IMG/VR virus record: IMGVR_UViG_3300034073_001486
Coordinates: 1 to 59,356 of that record
Reading direction: 5' to 3' (one strand)
From: a virus
Length of the DNA: 59,356 nt
In this document: positions 28,810 to 50,830 of the stretch, one piece after another
Numbering within the stretch: position 1 is the stretch's first letter
How the letters are laid out: each line of letters starts with the position of its first letter
Position numbers and translations under genes: made by a program
Notes under the pieces: model-generated
Told to the model about the DNA's origin: nothing
The model's database searches: none
The model's input: the letters and a program-made list of their open reading frames with translations, nothing else

Positions 28810-28883
28810 GTGAACTAGCAGATTTCTTGGTCGGCTCGGCCGGGGTGATCCTGGTCCTGTGGTTCTCGTCACGCGGTGGGTGA
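28806..28883 (+). CDS. Tiny membrane peptide (25 aa)
   Basis: GGAGGTGATTCG precedes the ATG. MSELADFLVGSAGVILVLWF and SSRGG: one transmembrane helix with a C-terminal Arg. With the peptide before it this forms a pair of 24-25-residue membrane proteins with coupled translation, just ahead of the recombinase. Confidence 0.5.
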   Translation: MSELADFLVGSAGVILVLWFSSRGG

Positions 28884-28887
28884 CACC

Positions 28888-29679
28888 ATGATCTACGGCT
28901 ATGCCCGTGTGAGCACGGACGAGCAGTCGGATTCGATCACGGCTCAGGTTGCCACGCTGAAGCGGTTCCTTGCCGAGTCAGGCATGGAGTCCGGAGGCGT
29001 GTTCGCAGATGAGAACGTGTCGGGCTCCGGCATCTGGTTCCGGAACCGGCCGCAAGGGAAGCGGGTGTACGACGCCTTGGCCCCGGGCGACATCTTGGTC
29101 GTCACGGTGCAGGACAGACTCACCCGTAACCTTGCGGACTGGGCCACCATGATGGAGGCGAGGAGGAACATCGGCTGGCAGCTATACATCCTCCAGGCGG
29201 GCCGCTACATCCAGAGTCCCGAGGATGAGATGGTCTACGGCATGCTCGCCTGCGTGGGGGCCTATGAGCCCAGGCGTACCAGCGCCCGGGTCAAGGCCGT
29301 GGCCGAGCATCGTCGCAAGCACGGGCTACCCTATGGCCCGAGCCGCCCGGTCGGATGGCAGAGCAAGGACGGGCAGTACATACCCCTGCCGGCGGAGCGG
29401 GCCATTGCCGACGAGGCGTTACGACTGCGAGAGCAGGGCGTTACTTACCCGGCAATCGCTTTGCGGTTTTGTCACAAGGGCTACAGGAAGCCTGGGCGTT
29501 CCGCCCGGTCGGCTGGCTGGTACTCCCCCGTAGATGTACGGAGTCTTTGTCTCGCGGCTGGAGCCGGATATCCAAAGATTCCGCGATCCGTTTGGAAAGT
29601 TTCTGCGACCGCAGAGAAGCTATGCGCAGAGGTATCTGGTGGTCCTCGGCCAGCTTCCGCAGCGTCGATCCCCGCATGA
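28888..29679 (+). CDS. Serine recombinase of resolvase type (263 aa)
   Basis: MIYGYARVSTDEQSDSITAQ contains the catalytic Ser9 in the YARVST motif. DENVSGSGIWFRNRPQGKRV, ILVVTVQDRLTRN and DWATMM follow the resolvase catalytic core. The C terminus (GVTYPAIALRFCHKGYRKPG, GWYSPVDVRSLCLAAGAGYP) is a short DNA-binding region. It is shorter than large serine integrases, so resolution or inversion is more likely than integration. Its last 239 bases overlap the sigma gene on the other strand. Confidence 0.85.
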   Translation: MIYGYARVSTDEQSDSITAQVATLKRFLAESGMESGGVFADENVSGSGIWFRNRPQGKRVYDALAPGDILVVTVQDRLTRNLADWATMMEARRNIGWQLYILQAGRYIQSPEDEMVYGMLACVGAYEPRRTSARVKAVAEHRRKHGLPYGPSRPVGWQSKDGQYIPLPAERAIADEALRLREQGVTYPAIALRFCHKGYRKPGRSARSAGWYSPVDVRSLCLAAGAGYPKIPRSVWKVSATAEKLCAEVSGGPRPASAASIPA

Positions 29680-30076
29680 AGCGATCCCAGGCCAGCTCCT
29701 GATCCTCATCGTCCAGCTCCTCAATCGCCAGCCGGACATGGTCCAGCTCGTCGAACATGGGCTTGAGATCAGCCGCCTCTTCCAGCGTCAGCTTGGTTTC
29801 CGCTGGCTGCCTCGTCTCCTTCTTGATCCACTTGAGCATCCCGTTCAGCATGGCCCTGGCGAAGTAGGCTTTCGGATACGGAAGCTTGGTTTTATCGTAC
29901 GTTCGGGCGGCTTTCGTCAGAGCTAGCAGACCTTCGGCCTCCAGGTCATCGACGAACAGGCCCCGCTGCCACGCCGGGCGGGACTGGACAAAGTAGCGGG
30001 CGAGGATCTTGGCGAGCGGGAAGTACTCAGCCGCCAGTGCCTGTCTTGTTTTTGAGAGCTTCGATCTCTTTCTCAT
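29441..30076 (-). CDS. Phage RNA polymerase sigma factor (211 aa)
   Basis: Residues 12-88 resemble sigma70 region 2: LAAEYFPLAKILARYFVQSR, DDLEAEGLLALTKAARTYDK, YFARAMLNGMLKWIKKE. Region 4 lies near 130-175: LDDEDQELAWDRFMRG, TLRKLAEDHQIPLRIASLRS, QKLSKRI. The last 35 residues overlap the recombinase on the other strand and look random. It overlaps the holin-like gene by 50 bases. It probably directs RNA polymerase to phage promoters, most likely the late genes. Confidence 0.8.
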   Translation of the reverse strand: MRKRSKLSKTRQALAAEYFPLAKILARYFVQSRPAWQRGLFVDDLEAEGLLALTKAARTYDKTKLPYPKAYFARAMLNGMLKWIKKETRQPAETKLTLEEAADLKPMFDELDHVRLAIEELDDEDQELAWDRFMRGSTLRKLAEDHQIPLRIASLRSQKLSKRIAESLDIRLQPRDKDSVHLRGSTSQPTGRNAQASCSPCDKTAKRLPGK

Positions 30077-30254
30077 GGTGATCTAGCCGGGCCTCATGGT
30101 TCTGAATGGCCTGATGCAACTCTTGCACCAGCTCTGGCAGGTGTTCGACCGAGGCGGCGATGATCGCCACCTTGGTGTGTATAGAGACCGCCCACGGAAT
30201 GACGGCCGCCGCCACCGAGATCAACACCAACCATGCTTCTGCCTCCAAGCTCAT
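30027..30254 (-). CDS. Holin-like membrane and coiled-coil protein (75 aa)
   Basis: GGGAGGGAAG precedes the ATG. Residues 7-35 form a transmembrane segment (AWLVLISVAAAVIPWAVSIH); residues 40-70 are an amphipathic coiled coil (LVQELHQAIQNHEARLDHHE). One membrane helix plus coiled coil is seen in several small phage holin or membrane-anchor families. Coupled upstream by ATGA. Assignment as holin rests on form and context. Confidence 0.55.
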   Translation of the reverse strand: MSLEAEAWLVLISVAAAVIPWAVSIHTKVAIIAASVEHLPELVQELHQAIQNHEARLDHHEKEIEALKNKTGTGG

Positions 30255-30472
30255 TCGTCTTCCCTCCCGACCATCATCAACAACATGAGACCCGCATACG
30301 GATGCAGCCGACCATCGGCCACATGCTCGCGTATGATCCAGGTCGCTCTCTCTTGTTCGTCATCGGGGTACTGGTAAACGTGTGTGTGTCCGTCGATCAC
30401 GGCGATGAGTCGATTGCATCGAACGCCTCCGCTCTCAGACGGCTGACCCCATGCCGACGATTCAATATCCAT
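30251..30472 (-). CDS. Small hypothetical protein (73 aa)
   Basis: The C-terminal 50 residues (RLIAVIDGHTHVYQYPDDEQ, ERATWIIREHVADGRLHPYA, GLMLLMMV) look like a real folded domain. The start is uncertain: ATG 30472, or GTG 30400, which overlaps the previous stop as GTGA. Overlap with the upstream gene is 76 bases with the longer form. Function unknown. Confidence 0.5.
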   Translation of the reverse strand: MDIESSAWGQPSESGGVRCNRLIAVIDGHTHVYQYPDDEQERATWIIREHVADGRLHPYAGLMLLMMVGREDE

Positions 30473-30714
30473 CGTTCGATCCACCGTGCGATGAGCGAAG
30501 CCAAGAGGGGGAGGACGAAGGCGATGAAGAACGGGTTGAGCGTGGGGTTTCTGCGTCGGTACTCTTCGATGATTCGGTGGGCATAGGTGCTGTCGGGCTC
30601 GTCCGGCGCAAGCATGATTGCCACCAACGCCACGCCCCTTGCACGTCGACTGAGTCGTTCGGTTCTCGTTGCACGGATCGCACGCTCCGCTATCGCTTCG
30701 GCTTCAGTTCGCAT
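30397..30714 (-). CDS. Membrane protein with C-terminal helix (105 aa)
   Basis: MRTEAEAIAERAIRATRTER is a charged N-terminal helix; residues 60-85 (NPFFIAFVLPLLASLIARWI) form a transmembrane segment flanked by Arg. A single-pass protein with a basic cytosolic domain is likely. It lies in the chain of small membrane genes around the peptidases, so lysis or peptidase delivery is possible. Confidence 0.55.
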   Translation of the reverse strand: MRTEAEAIAERAIRATRTERLSRRARGVALVAIMLAPDEPDSTYAHRIIEEYRRRNPTLNPFFIAFVLPLLASLIARWIERWILNRRHGVSRLRAEAFDAIDSSP

Positions 30715-30989
30715 TTGCCATCCGGGCAGGCATGGAGTTTGGCGGGCGGGTGATGCACGGCACCCTTCAGCTTGCACTCGCAGTCGGGCGGGCAGGGGCA
30801 GGGGGTCTTGTGACCGTCGCCGTGGGTGATCATGCCGTTGACGCAGAGGCCGCAGCACTTGCCCGCGTCGGGGTTCTCCATGCGGGCCGTGTTCACAACG
30901 AACGCAGCCTCGGCCGCCACCACGGGGCGGAGGTCTTGGGGCTCCGGCGAGATGAGCCGGCCGATGAACAAGAGAACTTCACTCACCAT
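30690..30989 (-). CDS. Cysteine-rich metal-binding protein (99 aa)
   Basis: The middle reads CCGLCVNGMITHGDGHKTPC, then CPPDCECK and HACPDGKCELK: nine or more cysteines with His, like DnaJ-type or rubredoxin-like zinc knuckles. A short hydrophobic N terminus (MVSEVLLFIGRLISP) could be a membrane helix. GTG 30986 is an alternative start. It overlaps the peptidase gene by 11 bases. Similar ITHGDGHxTxCPCPxxCxCK proteins occur in other phages. Confidence 0.6.
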   Translation of the reverse strand: MVSEVLLFIGRLISPEPQDLRPVVAAEAAFVVNTARMENPDAGKCCGLCVNGMITHGDGHKTPCPCPPDCECKLKGAVHHPPAKLHACPDGKCELKPKR

Positions 30990-31932
30990 GCTTCAGCATT
31001 CCTATGGCGCCGTAGTCGGGCAGGTGTTGAGGCGGGTAGCCGTCGATTGATCCGTACACCCAGCAGTCACCCGAGCGGACGCAGACATCGAAGTCTTCGT
31101 CCGACGTGACAATCATGCCGGGCACTTGGGGCGGGTAGTCCTTGGGCCAATCCTTCACGGGCTGGTTCCATGGACCCCAGCTATTGACGATGAACCAGAC
31201 ACGGAAAGGCCAGTGTTCCTTGGTGTCGTCGTAGCCAAGGATGGCCATGTCATGGTTCCAGCCTTTGGCCGCTCGCTCATGCGCGTTGCGTCGGCCAGGG
31301 GCGGCCTGCCATGCGGCGTACTGCCCAGAGTGGGCGGCGTAGCCGTTGTACAAAGCGTCTAGCAGATCGTCTTGGGACCGGATCAGCGTGATGCGGCCGA
31401 CGTTGTTCTGCTTGCAGAGGTCTTGTACCTCTTGTGGTACACCCGTTCGCCCCCAGCGTGCGCCGAGGGAGCCGTTGTACTTGGAGAGATCGACAACGTC
31501 GTAGTCATGGCGGGCCAGGAAGCCGACATCTCTCTCAAACTTGGAGGCTCGGGCCGGGCTCATGCCTTGACCGCCGTGTCCCCGAGCCCCATAGGTCGGC
31601 TCGGTGGCGCCACGCTTGAACCAACTGGCGGGCTCGCGGTTCACCAGTAGCTGAGTCGCACGCACGGCATCACGGCAATTGCGAGAGCCGTGGGAGACAC
31701 AGTCTCCAGTGGTCTGCCTTTCGCTGTAGGCGTCCTTGTCGAAGGCTAGAACATACTGCCAGAGCAGGGCACGCTTGCCGATGCCGGAACCTTTGATGTT
31801 CGGTTCTTCGTAATATTGATACCGCTGCCCCTCCAAGAACTCGGCCGTGTCCCGAGGGGAGTTGATGTACCCAGGCATGCCATCGTCGTACGCCTTGAGC
31901 AGCGAGAACGGTGTGTCTAGTTCGTCCGGCAT
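30979..31932 (-). CDS. Papain-like cysteine peptidase (317 aa)
   Basis: GGAGGTGCA precedes ATG 31932. The triad is visible: Cys78 in QTTGDCVSHGSRN, His227 in KGWNHDMAILGYDD, Asn250 in WFIVNSWGPWN, the standard C1A order and context. Gln73 could form the oxyanion hole. There is no signal peptide or obvious pro-region, and the length is that of a single domain with a 60-residue N-terminal extension. It may cleave host proteins or a virion protein, or act at lysis. Confidence 0.85.
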   Translation of the reverse strand: MPDELDTPFSLLKAYDDGMPGYINSPRDTAEFLEGQRYQYYEEPNIKGSGIGKRALLWQYVLAFDKDAYSERQTTGDCVSHGSRNCRDAVRATQLLVNREPASWFKRGATEPTYGARGHGGQGMSPARASKFERDVGFLARHDYDVVDLSKYNGSLGARWGRTGVPQEVQDLCKQNNVGRITLIRSQDDLLDALYNGYAAHSGQYAAWQAAPGRRNAHERAAKGWNHDMAILGYDDTKEHWPFRVWFIVNSWGPWNQPVKDWPKDYPPQVPGMIVTSDEDFDVCVRSGDCWVYGSIDGYPPQHLPDYGAIGMLKHGE

Positions 31933-32324
31933 TGCACCTCCACGGCCTTGCAACCCTGGACGATCTTGGCCACCAGCTCGGGCGTCATGGGCACATCCGT
32001 CTTCGGGAAGTACTGCGACAGCGTGGCTTCGATGGCGACATCCAAGCCGGGGTACTTGCCTTTGACGGGGGCGGCGCCGAGGGCCAGCGTGTCCCGATGG
32101 ATCAGACGCCAGACGCCGGTCGTTGCGATCAGCCGGCCGCCGTCCCGCTGCGTGATATCTGCCAGAGCCCGGTACATATCCGCCACGTACTGCCGGTCAG
32201 CCTTGGAGGCCGAGGCCAGGGCCGTGGCCACCTCGCCCGTGGCCGGTTGCTTGGCCGGTTCCCTGGCCGGCAGAAACGTGTAAGCTACGAGAGCCGTAGC
32301 TAATACGATTGGCAGGTGCTTCAC
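31917..32324 (-). CDS. Membrane-anchored or exported protein (135 aa)
   Basis: GTG start overlapping the previous stop as GTGA, with GGAGGTGG upstream. MKHLPIVLATALVAYTFLPA is a short N-terminal membrane anchor or signal peptide. The domain that follows (ADRQYVADMYRALADITQRD, LDVAIEATLSQYFPK, TPELVAKIVQGCKAVE) is helical with two Cys. I know similar DMYxALADIxxRD proteins only as phage unknowns. It sits directly before the papain-like peptidase. Confidence 0.6.
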   Translation of the reverse strand: MKHLPIVLATALVAYTFLPAREPAKQPATGEVATALASASKADRQYVADMYRALADITQRDGGRLIATTGVWRLIHRDTLALGAAPVKGKYPGLDVAIEATLSQYFPKTDVPMTPELVAKIVQGCKAVEVQCRTN

Positions 32325-32548
32325 TGGTCCACCTCCAGCAAGGCCCCTAGCAGGACGTTACACGCCTCCTTGACCTCGGGCGTAGGGTGAGCCTCTCGGA
32401 CAGCGATCACCGCTTGTACGTGATCCAGTAGCGTCTGGGAGGGTGCCTGGAACTTAGGCAGTGAAACCTTGTGCAGCAGTGGTCGGCCGTACACAAACAG
32501 GCAGACGGCGGCGAGGGCGGAAAGGGCGAGGATCTGGGGCAGGCTCAT
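32321..32548 (-). CDS. Small membrane protein (75 aa)
   Basis: MSLPQILALSALAAVCLFVY is a transmembrane helix; the rest (TLLDHVQAVIAVREAHPTPE, VKEACNVLLGALLEVDQ) is a helical soluble domain. It overlaps the subtilase stop by four bases. Together with the next gene it forms a pair of N-terminally anchored proteins between two peptidases. Confidence 0.6.
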   Translation of the reverse strand: MSLPQILALSALAAVCLFVYGRPLLHKVSLPKFQAPSQTLLDHVQAVIAVREAHPTPEVKEACNVLLGALLEVDQ

Positions 32549-33486
32549 AGTATGCGGGCTCCGGGGATAAACAGGGTGACTCCGCCGGGCTCGGCCTGCG
32601 CTTTGACCTGGGAGCCAATGAGCTTGGCCGGGTCCATCAGGCCCCAGCCGTAAGTGTGGTCATGCCCAGGCGGGCCGGCGTCCCGAGCCGACTCGGAGAG
32701 GGCGGCAATGATGTCCGCATGCGTGGCCGGTCCATGGTGCGAGATGTACAGAGCAAGCACGCCGGCAACGAACGGGGCAGCCATGGAGGTTCCCGAGATC
32801 GTCGCGTACCCATCGGCCAGCCAAGTGGAGGTGATGTCCTGGCCGGGGGCGGCGACCACAATCTCTTTGCCGCGCGAGCTGAAGTCACAGATGTTGCCAT
32901 GCTTATCCACGGCACCAACAGCGATGGTCTCATGGAACGCGGCCGGGAAGTTCACGCTGCCGCCGTCGTTGCCGGCGGCGCAGATGACGATCACCCCCTT
33001 TCCAGTTGCAAACTGAATGGCCTGATGCACATTCGCACTGGGGCTTGGGCTACCCAGCGACATGCAGATCAGGTCGACATCAGCCTCGGCGGCGTAACGC
33101 ACCGCCGTGGCAACCGCATCGTTACTCCCCATCCCCGAATGACCAAGCACCTTTAGCGCGATGATCTTGCAGCCGGGGGCGATGCCCTTGGCCGGGCCCT
33201 TGGCCGCCCCGATCACGCCGGCGACGTGAGTCCCATGCCCGAGCGTGTCGTACACCTCGGAGTCAGAGCTGAAGTTCCGCCGGTCAACCACGTTCTCCAA
33301 GGCGTAGTGAGGGGCCACGCCGCTGTCGATCACAGCGACCGTCACCCCCTCGCCCTTGGTCCGCTGCCACAACTCCGGGACGCTGTAGCTTGTCAGCGCC
33401 CAGTCAACGCCGTCCTTCTCGGAGTGCGGGACATGCTGGAGATCCACCCTGTAGGGAGGGAGGTGTACGTAGTCCAGCCCTTTCAC
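32545..33486 (-). CDS. Subtilisin-like serine peptidase (313 aa)
   Basis: The S8 triad is complete: Asp54 in VAVIDSGVAP, His84 in LGHGTHVAGV, Ser234 in ISGTSMAAPF; Asn173 in AAGNDGG is the oxyanion residue. GTG start with GTGA overlap. Residues 1-40 are a short pro-like part and no signal peptide is present, so export must use another route or the enzyme acts in the cytoplasm or after lysis. Subtilases are rare in phages. Calcium-dependent stability is expected for the family. Confidence 0.92.
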   Translation of the reverse strand: MKGLDYVHLPPYRVDLQHVPHSEKDGVDWALTSYSVPELWQRTKGEGVTVAVIDSGVAPHYALENVVDRRNFSSDSEVYDTLGHGTHVAGVIGAAKGPAKGIAPGCKIIALKVLGHSGMGSNDAVATAVRYAAEADVDLICMSLGSPSPSANVHQAIQFATGKGVIVICAAGNDGGSVNFPAAFHETIAVGAVDKHGNICDFSSRGKEIVVAAPGQDITSTWLADGYATISGTSMAAPFVAGVLALYISHHGPATHADIIAALSESARDAGPPGHDHTYGWGLMDPAKLIGSQVKAQAEPGGVTLFIPGARIL

Positions 33487-33818
33487 TTTCGCTTGCAGGC
33501 CATGGCTTCCAAGATGCTGATCACAACGGGCAACAGGACTTCAACGATCAGCTTCCAGTCCACCCCAAGCGCCGCAACGTCTGCGCCCATGGCGAACGAC
33601 ACCTCGGCGTCATCGTCCACAGACCAGTAGTCCGATGCCAGCAGCTCCATCACCTCGTCGTTACTCTCAACGACAGGCAGGACAAGCCGGGCAATCTCAT
33701 CGACCAAGACCCACTTCTCCAAGAGCGTCATGTCCTTGGAGAAACGCTTGCCGACTGACACTACCTGGAGCAGGAGTTCACGGTGTTGGATCAACCACTG
33801 CAAGATTTTGAGATTCAT
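33483..33818 (-). CDS. Helical protein with hydrophobic C terminus (111 aa)
   Basis: GAAAGGCGAG precedes ATG 33818. MNLKILQWLIQHRELLLQVV and SKDMTLLEKWVLVDEIARLV are amphipathic; the end DWKLIVEVLLPVVISILEAM is a possible membrane helix. It is acidic in the middle. It is coupled to the subtilase start and may be its partner, propeptide-like chaperone or inhibitor, which is speculation. Confidence 0.55.
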   Translation of the reverse strand: MNLKILQWLIQHRELLLQVVSVGKRFSKDMTLLEKWVLVDEIARLVLPVVESNDEVMELLASDYWSVDDDAEVSFAMGADVAALGVDWKLIVEVLLPVVISILEAMACKRK

Positions 33819-34179
33819 CTGTCTCGCCTTTCTTCGCGCGGATGCACGCAATCGCCACGGCCGCATGTCCCGCGATGTCATATAAAGTCTCTATTACTAG
33901 AGTGTCCATATTGCGGGCATCGCCACGCAGGCGTCGGCACTTCTCGCCAATCCTCGCAAGCTGGTACACCCACGGTTCAATTCCGTCCTCGGCCACTCCG
34001 AGGGCGTTCGACAACGGGCCGTCCTCCGGGCAGCCGTAGTACCCGCGCTTCCGGGAAAGCAGGGCGTACAGGTGATCACACACCGGGCGGTATGGGTCAG
34101 AACTGTCGGTCTCTTGCCGCTTTAACAATGCGTCCGTACTCCGCCCAGAAAGTCGCGTGATGCCAAGGGTCTTCATCAT
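33778..34179 (-). CDS. Conserved phage protein (133 aa)
   Basis: GGAGGACA precedes ATG 34179. The centre GPLSNALGVAEDGIEPWVYQ, LARIGEKCRRLRGD, TLVIETLYDIAGHAAVAIAC follows a family common in phages (PLxNA.GVA.DGI.PW.YQ.ARIGEK..RL......V.ETL.DIAGHA..AL) that resembles an all-alpha MazG-like fold. Nucleotide-related activity is possible. Overlaps its neighbour upstream by 83 bases. Confidence 0.65.
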   Translation of the reverse strand: MMKTLGITRLSGRSTDALLKRQETDSSDPYRPVCDHLYALLSRKRGYYGCPEDGPLSNALGVAEDGIEPWVYQLARIGEKCRRLRGDARNMDTLVIETLYDIAGHAAVAIACIRAKKGETDESQNLAVVDPTP

Positions 34180-34405
34180 TGTCCTCCTCGTCGTTTAACC
34201 AAGCCGTGCGGGCGTGGGCCCACTCCTCCACAAAAGTTTCGATCAATGCGTCATGGTCCAGCGTGTCCCGCAGGCAGATAATGCCGCGATCGACATCCTC
34301 ACCCATGGTGAAATAGCCATGCAGCCCTTCCATCTTGGTCGTCGGCCGGAGATACACCCTCACCGGAAACGTCAGAGGGAATCGATCCTCCAGCCAACGC
34401 TTCAT
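34097..34405 (-). CDS. Zincin-like protein with a degenerate HExxH motif (102 aa)
   Basis: LIETFVEEWAHARTAW and WHHATFWAEYGRIVKA align with phage SprT-like proteins that read LLHEWAHAL...HGPxWxxxYGRIYxA. Here the first His is Glu (EEWAH, residues 60-64), so zinc hydrolysis is doubtful. ATG 34405 fits family N termini (WLEDRFPLTFPVRVYL) and implies a true 107-base overlap with the resolvase gene. Function unknown; possibly a repurposed fold. Confidence 0.65.
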   Translation of the reverse strand: MKRWLEDRFPLTFPVRVYLRPTTKMEGLHGYFTMGEDVDRGIICLRDTLDHDALIETFVEEWAHARTAWLNDEEDNDEDPWHHATFWAEYGRIVKAARDRQF

Positions 34406-34739
34406 GCGACGGACCAGCCGCCTTCTCCAGGAATTTGGGCACATCCTCTAGCCTCACAATGAGCAGCCACGGCTTGTTGTTCCTACGGTGAAGGACGACC
34501 GGCACCTGCCCGTCGCCGGCATCGACAATCGCCTGCCCCAGCCAGTCGTACGGGTTGCCACGTTCGACTCTCTTCACCTCTAGATGGATGCCCGGCACGG
34601 AGTGAACCACATCCGGAGAGTCTTTCCCGCCCGAGAATTGCTGGCCTCTCCGAGCCGAGCATCCCATGACATCAGACCATATCTTGGCGGCCTCCCGCTC
34701 TGCCCGAGCCCCCTTGGCCCTGCTGTTTATGCCCGCCAT
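34299..34739 (-). CDS. Holliday-junction-resolvase-like nuclease (146 aa)
   Basis: INSRAKGARAEREAAKIWSD, ARRGQQFSGGKDSPDVVH, IHLEVKRVERGNPYDWLGQA and PVVLHRRNNKPWLLIVRLED carry the restriction-fold motif E-(12)-SPD-(10)-EVK of Hjc/VRR-type phage resolvases. It is expected to cut branched DNA before packaging and would work with ERF and the exonuclease. The C-terminal 40 residues after KFLEKA are low complexity and overlap the next gene. Confidence 0.82.
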   Translation of the reverse strand: MAGINSRAKGARAEREAAKIWSDVMGCSARRGQQFSGGKDSPDVVHSVPGIHLEVKRVERGNPYDWLGQAIVDAGDGQVPVVLHRRNNKPWLLIVRLEDVPKFLEKAAGPSHEALAGGSIPSDVSGEGVSPADDQDGRAAWLFHHG

Positions 34740-34969
34740 CTCGCCCCCCTGTTCGCATAATCGCGAACATCGATCTCCACCAGCTCGGGAAACTCCTCGG
34801 ACACCAGCTTGCACACGTCGTCCATCGCCCGCTTGTTAAGCACCCGCTCGTTTTGTTGCACCCACTGGCCCAGCCGGGAGGAGTAGTCCCAGTCCCGCTT
34901 GTGCCCTAGCGCCGGCCAGAAGAATCCAAACTTGCAGTTGGTAGTGTTGTAGTAGGCTGCCGACATCAT
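34727..34969 (-). CDS. Small hypothetical protein (80 aa)
   Basis: GGAGGTGAGGC lies six bases before ATG 34969, which overlaps the previous stop. MMSAAYYNTTNCKFGFFWPA, then WDYSSRLGQWVQQNERVLNK and CKLVSEEFPELVEIDVRDY. A mixed alpha/beta protein, family unknown. Its end overlaps the resolvase start. Confidence 0.55.
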   Translation of the reverse strand: MMSAAYYNTTNCKFGFFWPALGHKRDWDYSSRLGQWVQQNERVLNKRAMDDVCKLVSEEFPELVEIDVRDYANRGARWRA

Positions 34970-35334
34970 GCCTCACCTCCAGTCATCATCTCGCGGAGCA
35001 AGTCGATGTAATGATTCGGCCGGGCCTCGGCCACGCCGATGTCGATGAGGTAGTCTGTCAGCATCTCGCCACTGTCCAGGTCTTGGAGGTCACCGAGGAT
35101 GCGGCCGTAGGAATCACGGAAGAAGTCAGCCGTAATCAAACGCAGCCGGTCCTCGTTGCCGTGGATCTCCACCCAATCGTCGATAGCCTCGCGGGCCTCG
35201 GGCTGGCAGATCACACCTTCCAGCACAACGCGAGCCGCCACCATGCTCTGGATCGCAGGGACCATGAGGCGAACGTGAACGGTGTCGCACCTAGTGGCGC
35301 GGATGACTGTGACTACGGTGTCCTGCTGGACCAT
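34966..35334 (-). CDS. SNase-like (OB-fold thermonuclease-type) protein (122 aa)
   Basis: The order TRCDTVHVRLMVPAIQSMVA, CQPEAREAIDDWVE, LRLITADFFRDSYGRILGDL, EMLTDYLIDIGVAEARPNHY follows the staphylococcal-nuclease fold (D.D..R..L...EA......V.........D.YGR.L......L...L...G.A). Catalytic Arg/Glu positions are only partly kept, so nuclease activity is uncertain. It is next to two HNH genes. Confidence 0.65.
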   Translation of the reverse strand: MVQQDTVVTVIRATRCDTVHVRLMVPAIQSMVAARVVLEGVICQPEAREAIDDWVEIHGNEDRLRLITADFFRDSYGRILGDLQDLDSGEMLTDYLIDIGVAEARPNHYIDLLREMMTGGEA

Positions 35335-35717
35335 GAGTAGGTGTTCGCTTGTCGCTCGCGGATGTAAAACTGAGGGATCGATTGAGGTTCGACGCCAAGG
35401 TGTTTCTTTGCCTTTAGCCACGCCAAGAACTCCGGGTCGTAGTTGTCGGGGTCGCACTCCATCTTTGCTGCTAATAGTATACCTAAGTTCAGATCTGGAG
35501 TGTTAGCGTGAATCTTGCCTGAGTGGTACACCCCATGGCATCGCTCGCAGAGCCGGAGGTAGTTCCGCTCCGTGTGCCCCTTGGATCTGTTGGCCCCGCC
35601 GACAATGTGATGTACCTCCAACCGGCGGCGAGGATCAGACTCCGGCCACCAGCAGATGGCACAGGAACGATGGAGGTCGGCCCAGGCGACGAGGGCGGCT
35701 TGCTCAGACTCGGTCAC
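35313..35717 (-). CDS. HNH endonuclease (134 aa)
   Basis: CAICWWPESDPRRRLEVHHI, then GHTERNYLRLCERCHGVYHS is a full HNH fold: Cys-x2-Cys-like zinc site (Cys19, Cys22, Cys57, Cys60), the HH catalytic pair and the final N/H region. Small HNH nucleases next to packaging or recombination genes cut DNA during packaging or spread selfishly. Overlaps the next gene by 22 bases. Confidence 0.85.
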   Translation of the reverse strand: MTESEQAALVAWADLHRSCAICWWPESDPRRRLEVHHIVGGANRSKGHTERNYLRLCERCHGVYHSGKIHANTPDLNLGILLAAKMECDPDNYDPEFLAWLKAKKHLGVEPQSIPQFYIRERQANTYSWSSRTP

Positions 35718-36219
35718 GCATGGCCCCCACTAGGTCAGCGATGCACCGCTGGAACTGGTCCTCGGACATGGTGGCCTTGGCGTTGTTCAGCCACCACAGG
35801 ATCATCCGGCCGTTGCCGTCTTCGTAACCAATCTCATTGACTATGCGGTCTGGCGAAGGGGCGTAAGGATCGTTTTCCAGAATAGGCCCAAAGGGCAGGC
35901 CAGTCAGCTCGCATACGCCAGCGTTTACCTTTTCTACAAACCAATCCTCTGTCAGCGAAAACGAAAGGCCCCTCTCTCTCGCGCTGCGTTTTGCTCTTTG
36001 GTACAAGAATCTCCCTGTGTTTGCCTGAAACCATCGCTTCACTGCGAGGCGAGATTTTTTTTGCCCTTCCCCGGTGCTTCGATAAATCCTGCTCGCCTCA
36101 CTACAGCATTCCTTACACCAATAGCGCAACCCGTCAGATGTTCCTTTAGCCTTGTAAAAATGGGAGCGCGGCTTCTCCTTGCCGCACTTCGTACAAACCT
36201 TTGTCGCTTCGGCTATCAC
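35704..36219 (-). CDS. Zinc-ribbon and HNH/endonuclease-VII-like protein (171 aa)
   Basis: N-terminal ribbon CTKCGKEKPRSHFYKAKGTS then CKECC; central basic helix (KRWFQANTGRFLYQRAKRSA); C-terminal nuclease-like part GVCELTGLPFG, SPDRIVNEIGYEDGNGRMIL, WWLNNAK. The DRI...GY..GN motif is typical of homing-type HNH proteins. GTG at 36219 is only one base after GAAGGAG, so the true start is not certain. Likely a selfish homing endonuclease. Confidence 0.7.
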   Translation of the reverse strand: MIAEATKVCTKCGKEKPRSHFYKAKGTSDGLRYWCKECCSEASRIYRSTGEGQKKSRLAVKRWFQANTGRFLYQRAKRSARERGLSFSLTEDWFVEKVNAGVCELTGLPFGPILENDPYAPSPDRIVNEIGYEDGNGRMILWWLNNAKATMSEDQFQRCIADLVGAMRDRV

Positions 36220-36236
36220 GCTCCTTCGTCAGCCTT

Positions 36237-36254
36237 CTACCTCCGCTAAGGTAG
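36237..36254 (-). promoter_or_regulatory. Small leader hairpin before the HNH gene
   Basis: CTACCT (36237-36242) and AGGTAG (36249-36254) form a six-pair hairpin at the predicted mRNA start, between the promoter and the Shine-Dalgarno site. It could be an operator or could limit translation. Confidence 0.4.
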
Positions 36255-36260
36255 GCCAAG

Positions 36261-36289
36261 AGTATACAAAGATTCAGCGTACAAATCAA
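36261..36289 (-). promoter_or_regulatory. Sigma70-type promoter for the nuclease/peptidase operon
   Basis: On the minus strand TTGATT (36284-36289), 17 bases, TATACT (36261-36266). Four and five of six bases match consensus. It lies 42 bases before the HNH gene and could drive all genes down to the sigma factor. Confidence 0.7.
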
Positions 36290-36620
36290 GAGACAATCGG
36301 TTAAACGGTGGAGAGCGTGCATAGCGACTCCGGAAAACCGGGTGTCGCATGCTGTTAAACGGCGGAGCCGCGTTGCAGGAAGCGGGCGTGCGTTGTTGTT
36401 AACGGGGTCCACGGCCTTTACATCCTTCGCCCCGTGCAGCGTGGCCTCGCCATTTCATCCCCGGTCGGAGTCGTCAGCACACCGGGCTTTCTGCAAACTG
36501 CGAGATTGCTTGCGCGGGTCTCGCAGGGGTGTGATCTCTTCACCCCCAACAGGGGTAGTCGCCGGGGATTAGCCCAGCCTTCGGTGGATCACCGATCTTC
36601 AGACCGTCTGGCAACAGGGC
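36290..36620 (-). ncRNA. Candidate multi-hairpin RNA element
   Basis: There are about 330 bases without a supported gene. Perfect stems: ATCCCCGG (36457-36464) with CCGGGGAT (36562-36569) enclosing CTGCGAGA/TCTCGCAG (36498-36526) and GGGTG/CACCC (36527-36545). A separate hairpin at 36319-36352 has GCGAC/GTCGC and CCGG-AAAA-CCGG. GTTAAACGGxGGAG occurs twice (about 36302 and 36354). Either strand could be transcribed; the minus strand lies inside the operon. Confidence 0.45.
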
Positions 36621-37247
36621 CTAGTCGAACGTCTTGTTAAACATCTTCCGCCAGTCGGGAATGAAGATGCGGCATCGCTCTTCGTTCCAGCGGCAGAACG
36701 CTGTCAATTCGGCAATCGGGTACTCGGGCTTGGCCTTGGCCAGCCGGTGGAGATGCCACACATAAGTGCCCATCTCGGCACAGTACCGATCCGATTCTTG
36801 TCTGGTGGGGATGCCCAGCTCGCGGCGGGTCAGGGAGCCGTGGGTGTAGGCCACCCACTCATCAACGAGCATGAGCGGCTGGGCCTGCCAATACTCGCTC
36901 TCGCCCTGCTGCCGGTAGGTCTCGTAGATCCGGCCCCGCTCGGACTGGGGCACAGCGGCGAACACTCGGGCCGTCAGGATCGGCGGGGTCGGCAGGATGA
37001 TCCGCAGCCCGTTGCCGGCGTACACGGCGTGCCCGCCCTTGTGCCATTTGGACAGGAAGTGCGAGCCCTCATGGGCGTAGGTGATCAGGTCGGCGTCCCG
37101 GGCCGGGGTGGCCATGGGCAGGCGGCCGGCGATGTCGGACAGAGTTGGCGGGAACTCTGCCGGCGGCGACCACAGCTTTGCTACGTACTCCAGCTCGGCG
37201 GCGCCAACCGCGGCCTCCCCGAATAGTAGCAGCAGTTCCGCGATCAT
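36621..37247 (-). CDS. Zincin-type metallopeptidase-like protein (208 aa)
   Basis: DADLITYAHEGSHFLSKWHK contains HEGSH (residues 59-63), a full HExxH zinc site. LMLVDEWVAYTHG near residue 130 offers Glu130 as third ligand, as in gluzincins. YIYET-like and Trp-rich helices follow (TYVWHLHRLAKAKPEYPIAE). AAGGATGTG precedes the ATG. The N terminus LLLLFGEAAVGAAELEYVAK is hydrophobic but short. Substrate unknown; third active-site-bearing peptidase of this operon. Confidence 0.72.
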   Translation of the reverse strand: MIAELLLLFGEAAVGAAELEYVAKLWSPPAEFPPTLSDIAGRLPMATPARDADLITYAHEGSHFLSKWHKGGHAVYAGNGLRIILPTPPILTARVFAAVPQSERGRIYETYRQQGESEYWQAQPLMLVDEWVAYTHGSLTRRELGIPTRQESDRYCAEMGTYVWHLHRLAKAKPEYPIAELTAFCRWNEERCRIFIPDWRKMFNKTFD

Positions 37248-42863: not shown

Positions 42864-43691
42864 ATGAAGATGACAGAACTTGCCAAACGGTACGCCAACC
42901 GCGTAGGGGCCGCACCCAGCTACCTGGAGCAGCTCTTGGTGCTGACCAAGCGGCTGGACTGGCAGGCCGAGGATATGACTCCCGACCTGATCGACGCCTA
43001 CTTGACCGAGTCCCTTCGACACTTGGCCTCCTCCACTGTCGACAACCACCGCCGCATGCTGCGTTCGCTACTCGCCTTCGCGGCCGAGGAGCGTTTGGTG
43101 GCCAAGAGTATACTCCGTCCTTTGAGGCGTGTCAAGCGAAATCCGCCGAGCCCGCGCGCTTGGAGTCATGCCGAGATCATCAAACTCCTTGAGGCGTGCG
43201 ATGGGCTGCCGGGCCGCACGCTTAAATGCGCGCTGGCTACGTTGATGCCCGCGTGGATACTGGCCGCCTACTCCACCGGCCTGCGATTGAACGACCTGCT
43301 TGCGATCCGGCATGACGACCTCCGTGGCAATCGGATGATGATCCGCCAACAGAAAACCAGCGAGCCGCACATTGTCTTCTTGGATGACAACGCACTCGCC
43401 GCAATCCGCAAACTCCCCGCGTGCGGGCCACGCATCTTCGGGGACTTGGTCGGCAGGTCACGCATCTTAGTGGCGATGCGGAAACTGGTCAAGCGTGCAG
43501 GTCTGAACGGCAGTACAAAGTATTTGAGACGCAGCGGAGCGACTTACTGTGAGGTCCATGGAATTGATGCCAGTCATCACCTCGGGCATTTGTCGCCCGG
43601 GATGAAAAAGTTCTATGTCGACAGGCTCTTGCTGGCCGAGGAGAGGCCGCCACAGCCCGTGGTTCCGCCGATCCCGCTTAGAGCTGGTTGA
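42864..43691 (+). CDS. int: Tyrosine integrase (275 aa)
   Basis: GAGGGGCCACC precedes ATG 42864. N-terminal SAM-like core-binding part (SYLEQLLVLTKRLDWQAEDM, LASSTVDNHRRMLRSLLAFA). Catalytic part: Arg141 in YSTGLRLNDLLAI, Lys164 in RQQKTSEPH, Arg222 in KYLRRSGATY, His242 in HLGHLSPGMKKFYVD, Tyr251 nucleophile. The first His of HxLR is Lys. Short integrase without an arm-binding domain. It lies next to the tRNA half, so it probably recombines there. Confidence 0.9.
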   Translation: MKMTELAKRYANRVGAAPSYLEQLLVLTKRLDWQAEDMTPDLIDAYLTESLRHLASSTVDNHRRMLRSLLAFAAEERLVAKSILRPLRRVKRNPPSPRAWSHAEIIKLLEACDGLPGRTLKCALATLMPAWILAAYSTGLRLNDLLAIRHDDLRGNRMMIRQQKTSEPHIVFLDDNALAAIRKLPACGPRIFGDLVGRSRILVAMRKLVKRAGLNGSTKYLRRSGATYCEVHGIDASHHLGHLSPGMKKFYVDRLLLAEERPPQPVVPPIPLRAG

Positions 43692-46600
43692 CCACGCCCA
43701 GCACCTGGAGCGGGTCTAGGGCGGCTTCCTGCTTCTTCCGCTCGCGCGCCCGCTTGGCGGCATCGGCCTGGATAACGCGGTACAACAGGTACATCTGCCT
43801 TTGCTCCTCTGGCATCTGCCGAAGAACATCCTCTGGCACCGTGATGTTTTCGTATGTTCTGACGCCGGGTGTTGTCTGAAGCATATCGTTCAGCATCTGG
43901 CGGGCGGCCTGCTGCCGCGTTCGCTCTATGTCAATGTCGCGAATCTTTGCTCCGGCAAGAAGATTGAAGGCCAGCTTGGCCATCTTGTCTTGCGTAGTCA
44001 GGCGATCATCCGTCGCTGTGCGATAGACGCCCAGTGCGCGTGAGCCAAACGGAACGACGTTCATTACGGCCTGCTCTAGCGGCCTGCCGTAATCGCCCAG
44101 GTCTCGCTCCAGCACGGAATAGGTGTCCGACAAATCCCGCCCCGAATACAACTGGCGATTGGTCACGTACTCCAGCGGCGCCTTGAGGAGTGGGTTCGTC
44201 TGTCCGAGCAAGTTGCTGCCGGTGTCTCGCAGCGTGTGGCCAAGCGCCGCTAGAGTTGTGGACCCAGTCCCCGGAGACAGAAGATTGAAGAACGATTCCC
44301 ACGGCAAATCGATGCTGGTGAGATACCGCCGCAGCTCCGGGTTGCCGCTGCCCCATTCATCTGGAAGCGGTATGGCGGAACTCTGTCGCAAGTACGGCGG
44401 CGTGAAATTGTCCTCAGACGGCTCAGAGCCCCGCGTGACCGCGCGTATGGACTGGTTCTGAAACCCGCCAGGGCGGCGGATCAAGTTTGTGGTAATGCTT
44501 GGGACGATGCCTTTCTGGAAGCTGTAAAACGGCACCAGCCGCTTGAGGAAGTCGCGCTCTATGGCGCTGTACGCCTGTGGCGAATAGTCCACGTTCACGG
44601 TGCGAGTGACATCGCCGGCAACGCCGGGGTCGATACCGCGCCTGACCTGATTAAGGAATGTCTGCAATCGCAGGGTGTCTTCAGTAGTGCGGTTGACGAT
44701 GTCGTTCAGAACCAGGAGCGGGTTGGTGTTCTCTGGTAGCGGATTGGAGAACACGCCTACTCCACGCAGTCCGAAGAAGTCGCCGAGGAAGTCCCTCCAC
44801 GTTCTGTCTTGGTTGTAGAAGGCCCGCCGAACGGCGCCCTCCGGTCCTTGACCAAGCACAAGCGATGGCGCCGACTGCTCCGGCAGGCCGGACTGTATGT
44901 CGTCGACGGTAGACTGCCCGACCTTCTGCGCCGCTGCTTCTTGCAGAAGACGCCGTGCCCTCTCCTCGTCCGACGCAAGGTTTGCGTACCCGGGCGTGTT
45001 TCTCAGCCGCCGGCCCAGTGCGGCCCGGTTGCCGCGAGCCCCGCGAAACGCAGCCAGAAAATCAAGCGGATTGAAGGCGTCGCTTGCAATCGCATTGACC
45101 ACGCCTCCGTAAATGTTGCGAGTTGTGTAGCCAGGATAGGCCAGGGCCCCAACCTTAAAAGCGTTGGTAATGTTGTCAACGCCGCGAACAAGGCCGCGTG
45201 AAACATTGTCCAGTCTCGTCTGTGGGGCGAGTGTCGAAAGCGCATTGAGAAATCGTTCATTGACGGAGAAATTGGTGACATCGCTTCCGACTCGCCGTTG
45301 CCACATTTGCTGGAAGTTGTCTGGGTCAAAACCCAGTCGCTCGGCTGCCTGTGCGAGCCCGATGTTGACGCCGCCTGCGACATTGGCGGCCGGCGTATTG
45401 TCTGCACGCCTAATGAGCTGCTCAATCAGTTCGCCAGCATTAGCCTGCACTCTAGCCTGACCGCGACCGTAGCGGAGCATGTTTGCCCACGCATTGGTGT
45501 CGTACAGCCCAGTGCCAGTTTGCGCAAACTGCGTGTCGGCAGTGCGCAAAAGGTCAGCATAATCCAAGTAGTTCTGCCGCACTTGGCCCTGCGCCGCGCC
45601 CAGCATCTGCTGCTGGGCCGCAGGGGTTGCCGACGCAAACGCCGGACTATTCATCACGTCGTCGATGATGTACTGATATGGCTGTGGCGTGCCAGCGGCA
45701 GCAAACGCACGCTCCATCAAAAGTGCGGTCGCGTCATCGCTCGGCGAACGGATGAGCGACTGCTGCAACGCCTGCGAGTCAACGGCGTTTTGCGCCTGCC
45801 CAGTGGACACAAGCCGCTCAAACTCATCCGGTGCCGTACCGCTCAGTGTACGCGCTGTTCGTTGAGGGAACGGTATGTCAGTGTACGACCGCCGACTTCG
45901 ACCGAAGTTGTCGCCGGTCGCCAGCAGACGCTCGCCCATGCCGTACGGGTTGTATTGACGCGGGCCGCCTCCGGGAATTTCGGGAGGAGCATCACGCTGG
46001 AATCGCTTGAGCTGACGGGCAACCCAGCCGGTGTTTGCGGCTTGACTGGACCATGTTGGGTCTGGAAGTCCGAGGGCCACAGCATCGGCCGCTGACCGCA
46101 ATCCAATATCATCAAATGTTTCGATCAGCCGGCTGTATTCTGGAACTCGCTCAAAGAGCTGATCGTAATACTGGTTGCCGCTAGAGCGTGGAAGCATTGG
46201 TCCGACGCCACCAGGAGGCACCGCCTGCGACTCTATGTAGTCTGCGGCAGCCTGCATGAGCCGCGAGTCTTCCATGCGCGGGAACGGCATGGCGGGGCCG
46301 TACTGTCCGGCGGGGAGCTGGGCGGATGGCGGCAGGCTGCGGATGCTGTCCTCAACTTCGAACATCTCTCGCAGGAAATCCGACTCCAGCTCTCTGGCGG
46401 TGTTGCGGGCCCGGCGGTTGGCAAGCTGCACGTCGCCGGTCAGCTCCAGGTCGTTGCTGACAGTTCCAAGTCCACCGGCTCGCGAGTCGAAAATAGCGTC
46501 AAGCCCTCGGACGGCTTGGCCGATCCCAGGCGCATAACGCATTGCGCGTCCAGCGCTGTCCAGAAACCGAGCCGCCGCATCCCCCGCAGCGCCGCCGGAG

Positions 46601-47388
46601 ACCGATGCTCCTATGTTTGTTCTAGGAACACGGAAGTCCCAAAGAGCGCCAGCGGATTCATCCAGCCGTCGCCCCGGCTGAACTCCAAGCCGCTGGGACT
46701 GCTGGCGAAACCGCAGCATTGCCTGCGCTCGTTCCGCCGGATCTTCAATCTGTGCAAACCACTGACGAGGAGTCAGCATGCGGGTGTATTCACGTGTGCC
46801 GACATCTGCCATCGGAAGGCCACGCCCGGCCCGCATCGCACCGCCAAAATCCGCTGCATCCTCGGCAAGATTGCGGAAGGCTCCGGAAGCCTCCATCGCC
46901 TTACCGACACGCGACAGTCCACCAGTTTTCCCGAGCAACGCCCATGGGGCGAAGTATGTCGTCGGGTCTAAAAGAACTTCGGCAGCGAGTCCGCCTGCGA
47001 AGTTGCCCCACCCGTCTTCATCTCCAATCACCCCGTACTGTCGGAGCAACTCTCTTCCGGTGACGCGCTCGTCGCTCGTATCCCACAATGCCGACAACGC
47101 CTTGCCGGGGCCCTCTGACAACAGGCCACGCACCATGGCCCCAGGCGTGTCCAAGACCCACCCGATGCCAGCGAGCCCGCTAGTGCCCATGTCGGCCAGC
47201 CGGCCAAGCATGGACCGCTGCTCCTCCTGCGGCATCAGGTCAGAGAGCGTGGCCTTGCGTGGACCCACCGGCACCATGCCGTACGGTTCGATCTCCTCTT
47301 CGTCGCCATACGGGAGTAGACCTGTCTCGGCCTGCTGTTGCAGGATGCCGTAGGGGTCGTATAGATCGAAGAGTGGGGAGAGGGCCAT
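43678..47388 (-). CDS. Very large internal virion or ejection protein (1,236 aa)
   Basis: Size, place at the end of the tail operon and segments such as LAGIGWVLDTPGAMVRGLLS, GGLAAEVLLDPTTYFAPWAL, TNAFKVGALAYPGYTTRNIY, FLKRLVPFYSFQKGIVPSIT and LPWESFFNLLSPG fit injected structural or polyvalent proteins of podovirus-like phages (DPTTYxxxW, LxPFxxFxKN-like motifs). Several hydrophobic stretches could enter the host envelope. Overlaps the integrase stop by 14 bases on the other strand. Confidence 0.75.
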   Translation of the reverse strand: MALSPLFDLYDPYGILQQQAETGLLPYGDEEEIEPYGMVPVGPRKATLSDLMPQEEQRSMLGRLADMGTSGLAGIGWVLDTPGAMVRGLLSEGPGKALSALWDTSDERVTGRELLRQYGVIGDEDGWGNFAGGLAAEVLLDPTTYFAPWALLGKTGGLSRVGKAMEASGAFRNLAEDAADFGGAMRAGRGLPMADVGTREYTRMLTPRQWFAQIEDPAERAQAMLRFRQQSQRLGVQPGRRLDESAGALWDFRVPRTNIGASVSGGAAGDAAARFLDSAGRAMRYAPGIGQAVRGLDAIFDSRAGGLGTVSNDLELTGDVQLANRRARNTARELESDFLREMFEVEDSIRSLPPSAQLPAGQYGPAMPFPRMEDSRLMQAAADYIESQAVPPGGVGPMLPRSSGNQYYDQLFERVPEYSRLIETFDDIGLRSAADAVALGLPDPTWSSQAANTGWVARQLKRFQRDAPPEIPGGGPRQYNPYGMGERLLATGDNFGRSRRSYTDIPFPQRTARTLSGTAPDEFERLVSTGQAQNAVDSQALQQSLIRSPSDDATALLMERAFAAAGTPQPYQYIIDDVMNSPAFASATPAAQQQMLGAAQGQVRQNYLDYADLLRTADTQFAQTGTGLYDTNAWANMLRYGRGQARVQANAGELIEQLIRRADNTPAANVAGGVNIGLAQAAERLGFDPDNFQQMWQRRVGSDVTNFSVNERFLNALSTLAPQTRLDNVSRGLVRGVDNITNAFKVGALAYPGYTTRNIYGGVVNAIASDAFNPLDFLAAFRGARGNRAALGRRLRNTPGYANLASDEERARRLLQEAAAQKVGQSTVDDIQSGLPEQSAPSLVLGQGPEGAVRRAFYNQDRTWRDFLGDFFGLRGVGVFSNPLPENTNPLLVLNDIVNRTTEDTLRLQTFLNQVRRGIDPGVAGDVTRTVNVDYSPQAYSAIERDFLKRLVPFYSFQKGIVPSITTNLIRRPGGFQNQSIRAVTRGSEPSEDNFTPPYLRQSSAIPLPDEWGSGNPELRRYLTSIDLPWESFFNLLSPGTGSTTLAALGHTLRDTGSNLLGQTNPLLKAPLEYVTNRQLYSGRDLSDTYSVLERDLGDYGRPLEQAVMNVVPFGSRALGVYRTATDDRLTTQDKMAKLAFNLLAGAKIRDIDIERTRQQAARQMLNDMLQTTPGVRTYENITVPEDVLRQMPEEQRQMYLLYRVIQADAAKRARERKKQEAALDPLQVLGVVNQL

Positions 47389-50492: not shown

Positions 50493-50830
50493 CTGAAGAG
50501 CCCTCCGAGCAGGCTGTTGGCAAAGCCGGTCATCTGGCTCAGGCGGCTATTGGAAAGATCCTGCTGCTGCTGCTGGGCCTGGGCCATCTGTTGCAACCCT
50601 GCCAGCGCCAGTCCCTGCTGGGCTGCCCGCTGCTGGGCTGCATACTGGTTATTCACGTCCTCGGCCGAGCGTCGGTACGCATCGGCGTTCATGGAGCCGA
50701 CATAGTTCAGAACGTCCTGGTGGTTCTGGCCGAACTGCTTGTACGGCGAGCGAGGCTTCATCGCCTCCATGCCCTGACGGATGTCAGAGACGGGCTGCTC
50801 AAACGGGAGTTGCGTGTTGTAGGTAAGCAT
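50489..50830 (-). CDS. Gln-rich protein, paralogue 2 (113 aa)
   Basis: ATG 50830 overlaps the previous TGA. SMNADAYRRSAEDVNNQYAA, QQRAAQQGLALAGLQQMAQA, QQQQQDLSNSRLSQ, ending FANSLLGGLFS. Same composition and end as its neighbour, so the pair is probably a tandem duplication. Translationally coupled. Confidence 0.6.
   Translation of the reverse strand: MLTYNTQLPFEQPVSDIRQGMEAMKPRSPYKQFGQNHQDVLNYVGSMNADAYRRSAEDVNNQYAAQQRAAQQGLALAGLQQMAQAQQQQQDLSNSRLSQMTGFANSLLGGLFS

Follow-up and report, generated by a model that had tools for sequence, protein, structure and literature searches.

How a phage with no recognizable endolysin might lyse its host is the question raised by the virus record IMGVR_UViG_3300034073_001486 of IMG/VR, whose whole stretch of 59,356 nt is the window analyzed here. 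On its minus strand an operon places peptidase genes beside genes for holin-like and other small membrane proteins, and an earlier reading of the sequence (the original prediction) proposed that general proteases form a module for lysis or envelope remodeling, suited to a host with a protein-rich or unusual wall. The part of this operon that recurs in unrelated phages is a compact unit of small proteins around a papain-family cysteine peptidase, which we call PAP. We put the chances at about even that this conserved unit serves a large group of planctomycete phages as their lysis module, with PAP in the endolysin's place.

PAP and the search for an endolysin

PAP (30979-31932) starts at an ATG and is 317 residues long. 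Its AlphaFold model has a mean predicted local distance difference test score (pLDDT) of 88.4, and a Foldseek search with this model gave 153 PDB matches at E<=0.001, the best of them to papain-family enzymes; xylellain (3ois, E = 6.8e-9) and cathepsins were matched with probability 1. In an alignment of 45 diverse homologs, Cys78, His227, and the oxyanion Gln are invariant, and Asn250, within an NSWG motif, is kept in more than 90%, with Gln instead in the close relatives L017 and L018. At the level of sequence the relationship is distant. PF00112 is matched with E = 0.2 and 12.2 bits, below its cut-off of 20.7; a PDB sequence search with a 15-row PAP profile returned no match, and one with a 45-row profile reached Cwp84 at E = 0.02. 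Because the PF00112 score stays below the gathering cut-off, kinship with the papain family is drawn from fold and motifs together. On the evidence of the model, PAP is a predicted papain-fold peptidase with its catalytic Cys and His intact.

In three relatives (L013, L019, and L022) the PAP open reading frame (ORF) is long, and we considered and rejected the idea that these are PAP–lysin fusions, as the insert reads as an intein. Inteins with LAGLIDADG-like blocks are present in PAP at L013:11533-13701, L019:11521-13656, and L022:11473-13680, in each case immediately upstream of the catalytic Cys, which is the +1 splice residue. Inteins prefer such essential sites.

The claim that the window holds no recognizable endolysin stands. 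Profile searches found no muramidase, amidase, or peptidoglycan endopeptidase in any window ORF, and no lysin family was among all Pfam matches of the 91 ORFs at E<=0.01. Eight lysin families (PF00959, PF01510, PF01551, PF08291, PF01464, PF05257, PF13539, and PF00877) were then sought in six frames in 26 PAP-carrying phages of 29-185 kb, records that may be fragments; none was matched above cut-off, and control genomes gave matches. A lysozyme encoded elsewhere in related phages that carry the peptidases, which the original prediction had named beforehand as telling against it, was likewise not seen above cut-off in these 26. One long frame of G415 gave a sub-threshold M23-like match (E = 0.0014). 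In two unrelated PAP phages no lysin was among the 25 Pfam families listed out of 27, and because the PHROG tallies and some of the Pfam tallies comprise 25 families at most, weak lysin matches in relatives may be missed.

The conserved unit and its partners

Gene order was compared in 25 subtilase loci, at 62-73% identity to the window subtilase, and in further loci found with PAP. With each gene named by its lower coordinate, the order 33483-subtilase-32321-31917-PAP-30690-30397-30251-30027-sigma is nearly fixed, with a recombinase on the other strand, and near-invariance in about 60 related loci excludes chance. The operon genes lie where the original prediction had placed them, all on the minus strand, and most neighbors overlap by 4-16 nt (translational coupling):

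33483-33818, minus strand: small protein with a hydrophobic C-terminus, first gene of the conserved unit (hydropathy; conserved order)
32545-33486, minus strand: subtilase of the intracellular-subtilisin type, without a signal peptide (PF00082, PDB match, triad)
32321-32548, minus strand: small protein with an N-terminal transmembrane segment (hydropathy; same-place homologs in L031 and L032)
31917-32324, minus strand: small protein with an N-terminal (membrane or signal) helix and a helical domain, the constant partner of PAP
30979-31932, minus strand: PAP, papain-family (C1-type) cysteine peptidase, 317 residues, without a signal peptide, core of the module
30690-30989, minus strand: Cys-rich ITHGDGH protein, with a lipoprotein-like N-terminus in distant homologs (alignment)
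30397-30714, minus strand: small protein with a single C-terminal transmembrane segment (hydropathy, alignment); likely start the Met at 30714, judged from orthologs
30251-30484, minus strand: small soluble cassette protein, conserved in about 25 loci
30027-30254, minus strand: holin-like protein with an N-terminal transmembrane segment and a coiled coil (PHROG 1296, hydropathy)
29441-30076, minus strand: sigma-factor-like protein at the operon end (Sigma70_r2, E = 4.8e-5, just below the Pfam cut-off; PHROG 234, late sigma factor, 1.9e-4)
34097-34444, minus strand: EExxH protein with a variant zincin-like motif, outside the PAP unit
36621-37247, minus strand: HExxH protein, probably exported, an optional and mobile accessory

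What is conserved more widely is the set 33483-32321-31917-PAP-30690-30397-30027, which is present without subtilase or sigma factor in unrelated phages (L031, L032, L112-L116, and others). The PAP profile matched at least 321 viral contigs, of which 80 were kept. When all window proteins were compared by profile with seven other types of PAP phage, represented by three whole contigs and four partial loci, PAP was the sole protein common to all seven; 31917 was found in six and 30690 in four, and every other window protein in two at most. With iterated profiles, 75 of 91 distinct loci have a homolog of 31917 no more than 4.5 kb from PAP, and 70 have a homolog of 30690 near PAP. This co-occurrence argues that PAP and 31917 are a unit under selection and that the subtilase is a lineage-specific insertion.

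Several features connect the partners to the envelope. Hydropathy finds hydrophobic segments in 30027, 30397, and 32321, and at the C-terminus of 33483. Three of the four small membrane proteins named in the original prediction are thus borne out; for the fourth, 31917, the window copy falls below the hydropathy threshold, and the N-terminal helix is seen in the AlphaFold model only. As that model is confident (pLDDT 90) and has no significant PDB match, we rejected the idea that 31917 is a hidden lysozyme. In the 30027 family, 11 of 14 members match PHROG 1296, “holin” (best E = 3.1e-6); one transmembrane segment followed by a coiled coil would also fit XhlA or an i-spanin. Homologs of 30690 in L031, L032, and L119 have lipobox-like VGC, AGC, and SGC motifs. 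Finally, in L203 and L204, two clusters on planctomycete chromosomes, the PAP homologs are equipped with a membrane (signal) anchor at the N-terminus and adjoin 31917 and phage head genes (by eye, plus Pfam matches to portal and capsid). These two clusters and a third, L209, are phage-head or gene-transfer-agent-like (terminase, portal, capsid), and next to each lie a gene for signal-anchored PAP, one for 31917, and one that is thioredoxin-like; the flanking chromosomal genes look alike between two of the species.

The other peptidase-like genes behave differently. The subtilase is complete, as claimed: PF00082 is matched at E = 4e-53 and PHROG 3677, “protease,” at 7e-77, and the triad Asp54/His84/Ser234 and an N-terminal LPPY are invariant in 11 orthologs. 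In the PDB it matches best an intracellular serine protease (7y6m, 3.8e-47), whose short N-terminal inhibitory motif, LIPY, aligns with LPPY, giving the latter a putative inhibitory role. The HEGSH protein is also zincin-like as proposed, with HExxH and a downstream DEWxAY invariant in nine orthologs, several of which have a signal-peptide-like N-terminus. Its gene is found in only part of the relatives (also at L096:16497-17105), and in G006 it lies on the opposite strand beside head genes; we regard the protein as probably a mobile zincin-like accessory that is exported. The EEWAH protein had been called a degenerate zincin, but EEWAH and a later HH are invariant in 11 orthologs, which speaks for a fixed motif without recent decay and possibly, to judge from the alignment, for an unusual metal site. 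Its gene is grouped with HNH and PDDEXK nuclease genes. We therefore rejected the view that the four peptidase-like genes are a single functional unit: the HEGSH gene is not always present and changes place, the EEWAH gene goes with nuclease genes, and the subtilase is missing from other PAP modules. Of the proposed protease module, PAP with its membrane proteins is conserved, and the near-invariant neighborhood supports it, but the other three fall outside the shared unit. The predicted papain-like peptidase was confirmed, and for the sigma factor a sigma-factor-like protein is found at the operon end.

The phage itself belongs to a podovirus-like, 60-kb lineage. The window encodes a P22-like portal, terminase, head protein, and tail fibers, as well as ERF, SSB, exonuclease, and helicase genes, the sigma-factor-like protein, and a serine recombinase; portal and terminase have only distant matches to cultured relatives, and no close cultured relatives of PAP were found. 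Relatives are 58-63 kb and colinear with the window, and in two related contigs (G010 and G011) the ends share sequence, so the window is taken as a near-complete genome of about 60 kb. The contig is linear and has no end repeats, so a few variable genes may be missing. In almost every relative the recombinase gene (28876-29679) runs convergently toward the end of the operon, and in the window it overlaps the sigma-factor gene. A promoter scan gave no excess over shuffled sequence. Among the other records, IMGVR_UViG_3300049595_001870 (117.8 kb; L003 and L011; G021) contains two different genomes of the window phage type, with two terminases and two PAP genes, and is an assembly chimera or joined genomes. 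Two further PAP phages, G413 (L216-L218) and G414 (L219-L221), have Pfam matches, pooled over both, to PrkA kinase, DUF444, and a reverse transcriptase domain.

Host envelope and the role of the unit

The hosts are probably Planctomycetes, to judge from related sequences. Planctomycete metagenome-assembled genomes (MAGs) account for four of the five PAP matches in bacterial genome contigs, and in the phylum of one of these MAGs a PAP homolog is present in 12 of 392 genomes. A Synechococcus host, suggested by L030, was set aside as misbinning: L030 is a 3.6-kb contig of one MAG, and the 194 genomes of the cyanobacterial phylum gave, beside this likely misbinned contig, one marginal PAP match. 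A low-GC PAP phage encodes a prepilin-type protein resembling DUF1559 (L174:2838-3959), a domain that we take to be typical of Planctomycetes, which would make the protein a hint at a planctomycete host.

In the mechanism that we propose, PAP of the window phage would be made in the cytoplasm without a signal and would reach the envelope once holin-like 30027, perhaps aided by the remaining small membrane proteins, permeabilizes the inner membrane; the chromosomal homologs would cross that membrane by their own anchor. PAP would then cleave peptide bonds of a load-bearing envelope layer, with a protein layer, peptidoglycan-attached envelope proteins, and peptidoglycan stem peptides as candidate substrates. 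Control could lie with 31917, which is probably anchored in the membrane as a partner of PAP, its inhibitor, or its adaptor, and with 30690, probably a lipoprotein-like or metal-binding envelope partner. The subtilase inserted in the 60-kb lineage would most likely degrade or activate cytoplasmic proteins around lysis. A bolder form of this idea, which we advance tentatively and hold to be doubtful, is that planctomycete phages lyse by proteolysis, with PAP, brought across by a holin-like protein and tuned by dedicated membrane and lipoprotein partners, cutting a structural envelope protein layer and no peptidoglycan hydrolase needed. If it were true, a protein-directed lysis strategy would have spread over several unrelated phage lineages.

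A number of points weigh against PAP as the endolysin's replacement. First, we know of no established endolysin class among C1 papain enzymes. Second, the lysis role is one that we infer from genes and their neighbors, and the host assignment rests on binning and on chromosomal homologs. Third, the unit in the window comes after early DNA-metabolism genes, away from the late structural genes. Fourth, the partners are only partly present in the most distant PAP homologs, and the catalytic Asn of PAP is not fully invariant. Fifth, an unrecognized peptidoglycan hydrolase could hide among the many unannotated proteins. Finally, lysozyme dissolves planctomycete sacculi (PMC4432640), which leads one to expect a peptidoglycan hydrolase. 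The protein-rich or unusual wall of the original prediction fits the planctomycete hosts indicated, whose walls are SDS (sodium dodecyl sulfate)-resistant and proteinaceous in older reports (PMC3422733), but lysozyme-sensitive peptidoglycan is present as well. These wall data would be compatible with a peptidase whether its target is a protein layer, protein bound to peptidoglycan, or the stem peptides.

The same data can be read in another way. PAP and its membrane partners may serve envelope or receptor modification (superinfection exclusion) or virion release, with the module stripping a surface protein layer and an unrecognized peptidoglycan hydrolase, encoded elsewhere in each phage, lysing the cell. 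Here too the envelope is suggested by membrane anchors and by partners that resemble lipoproteins, both kinds of wall report would be accommodated, and the hydrolase could be one of the large window proteins without a family match, for instance 43678-47388 or 50830-52533. This reading has to contend, however, with eight lysin families that give no match above cut-off and with the fact that PAP alone is common to the seven phage types, such that each type would need its own novel hydrolase. We judge it unlikely.

Quite improbable, in our estimate, is a role of PAP and the subtilase as cytoplasmic proteases of host takeover or counter-defense, to which the small membrane proteins would be incidental. 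Neither enzyme has a signal peptide in the window phage, the subtilase is nearest to intracellular subtilisins, and early DNA-metabolism genes precede the cassette, whose last gene encodes a sigma factor; yet it is membrane and lipoprotein partners, and not the subtilase, that PAP accompanies, and its chromosomal homologs are signal-anchored. That PAP is a virion protein or a head or tail maturation protease we consider highly improbable, for although head and tail genes flank the unit in L031, and baseplate and tail genes surround it in L119, a protease-like head gene distinct from PAP is already present in L203 and L204 (by eye), the structural genes of the window are a long way from PAP, and the membrane partners would be left unexplained.

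Should the conserved unit indeed act in lysis, a papain module shared by phages without recognizable endolysins would point to an enzyme for testing. The substrate of PAP would reveal where in the planctomycete envelope the mechanical load is borne, which has been disputed ever since a “proteinaceous cell wall” was put forward, and the enzyme could become a lysis tool for a phylum that is difficult to manipulate. PAP and 31917 together could also serve as a marker for assigning planctomycete phages in metagenomes.

Relation to known systems

With the members of papain family C1 (xylellain, cathepsins, Cwp84), PAP shares the fold, the Cys-His(-Asn) site, the oxyanion Gln, and, in more than 90% of the aligned homologs, the Asn of the NSWG motif. 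It differs from them in having no classical propeptide, in being too distant for PF00112, and in being a phage gene with its own partners. CHAP and NlpC/P60 lysins belong with PAP to the papain-like superfamily and use Cys-His catalysis, and a role as phage lysin would be common to all if PAP is one; they are, however, families other than that of PAP, and neither is matched above cut-off in the 26 PAP phages. The window subtilase has the triad, the LIPY/LPPY-like motif, and the lack of a signal peptide in common with intracellular subtilisins (ISP; 7y6m, 2x8j) and with the Bacillus and Moorella phage subtilases of PHROG 3677, and unlike these it is embedded in a PAP cassette of a podovirus-like 60-kb lineage.

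Our searches of the open-access literature brought up no work on how planctomycete phages lyse their hosts and none that describes a C1 papain enzyme as an endolysin. BFVD contains papain-fold proteins of other phages, and some of its records are titled N-acetylmuramidase or peptidoglycan-binding-like, for example, so that lysins with papain domains may exist elsewhere. Cysteine peptidases do act as lysins against an unusual, peptide-containing wall in methanogen viruses, whose PeiW and PeiP are pseudomurein endoisopeptidases (C71), although peptidase family, hosts, and wall all differ from those considered here.

The PAP unit would be a lysis-cassette-like module with an enzyme of a class not known to us as an endolysin. 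Like the holin–endolysin cassettes of lambda (S-R-Rz) and of Bacillus PBSX (xhlA-xhlB-xlyA), it is a compact group, recurring in unrelated phages, in which a single hydrolytic enzyme is accompanied by a holin-like protein and by small membrane proteins. Unlike them, it has a C1 papain-type peptidase, outside the known endolysin families, as its enzyme, and it includes the extra conserved partners 31917 and 30690.

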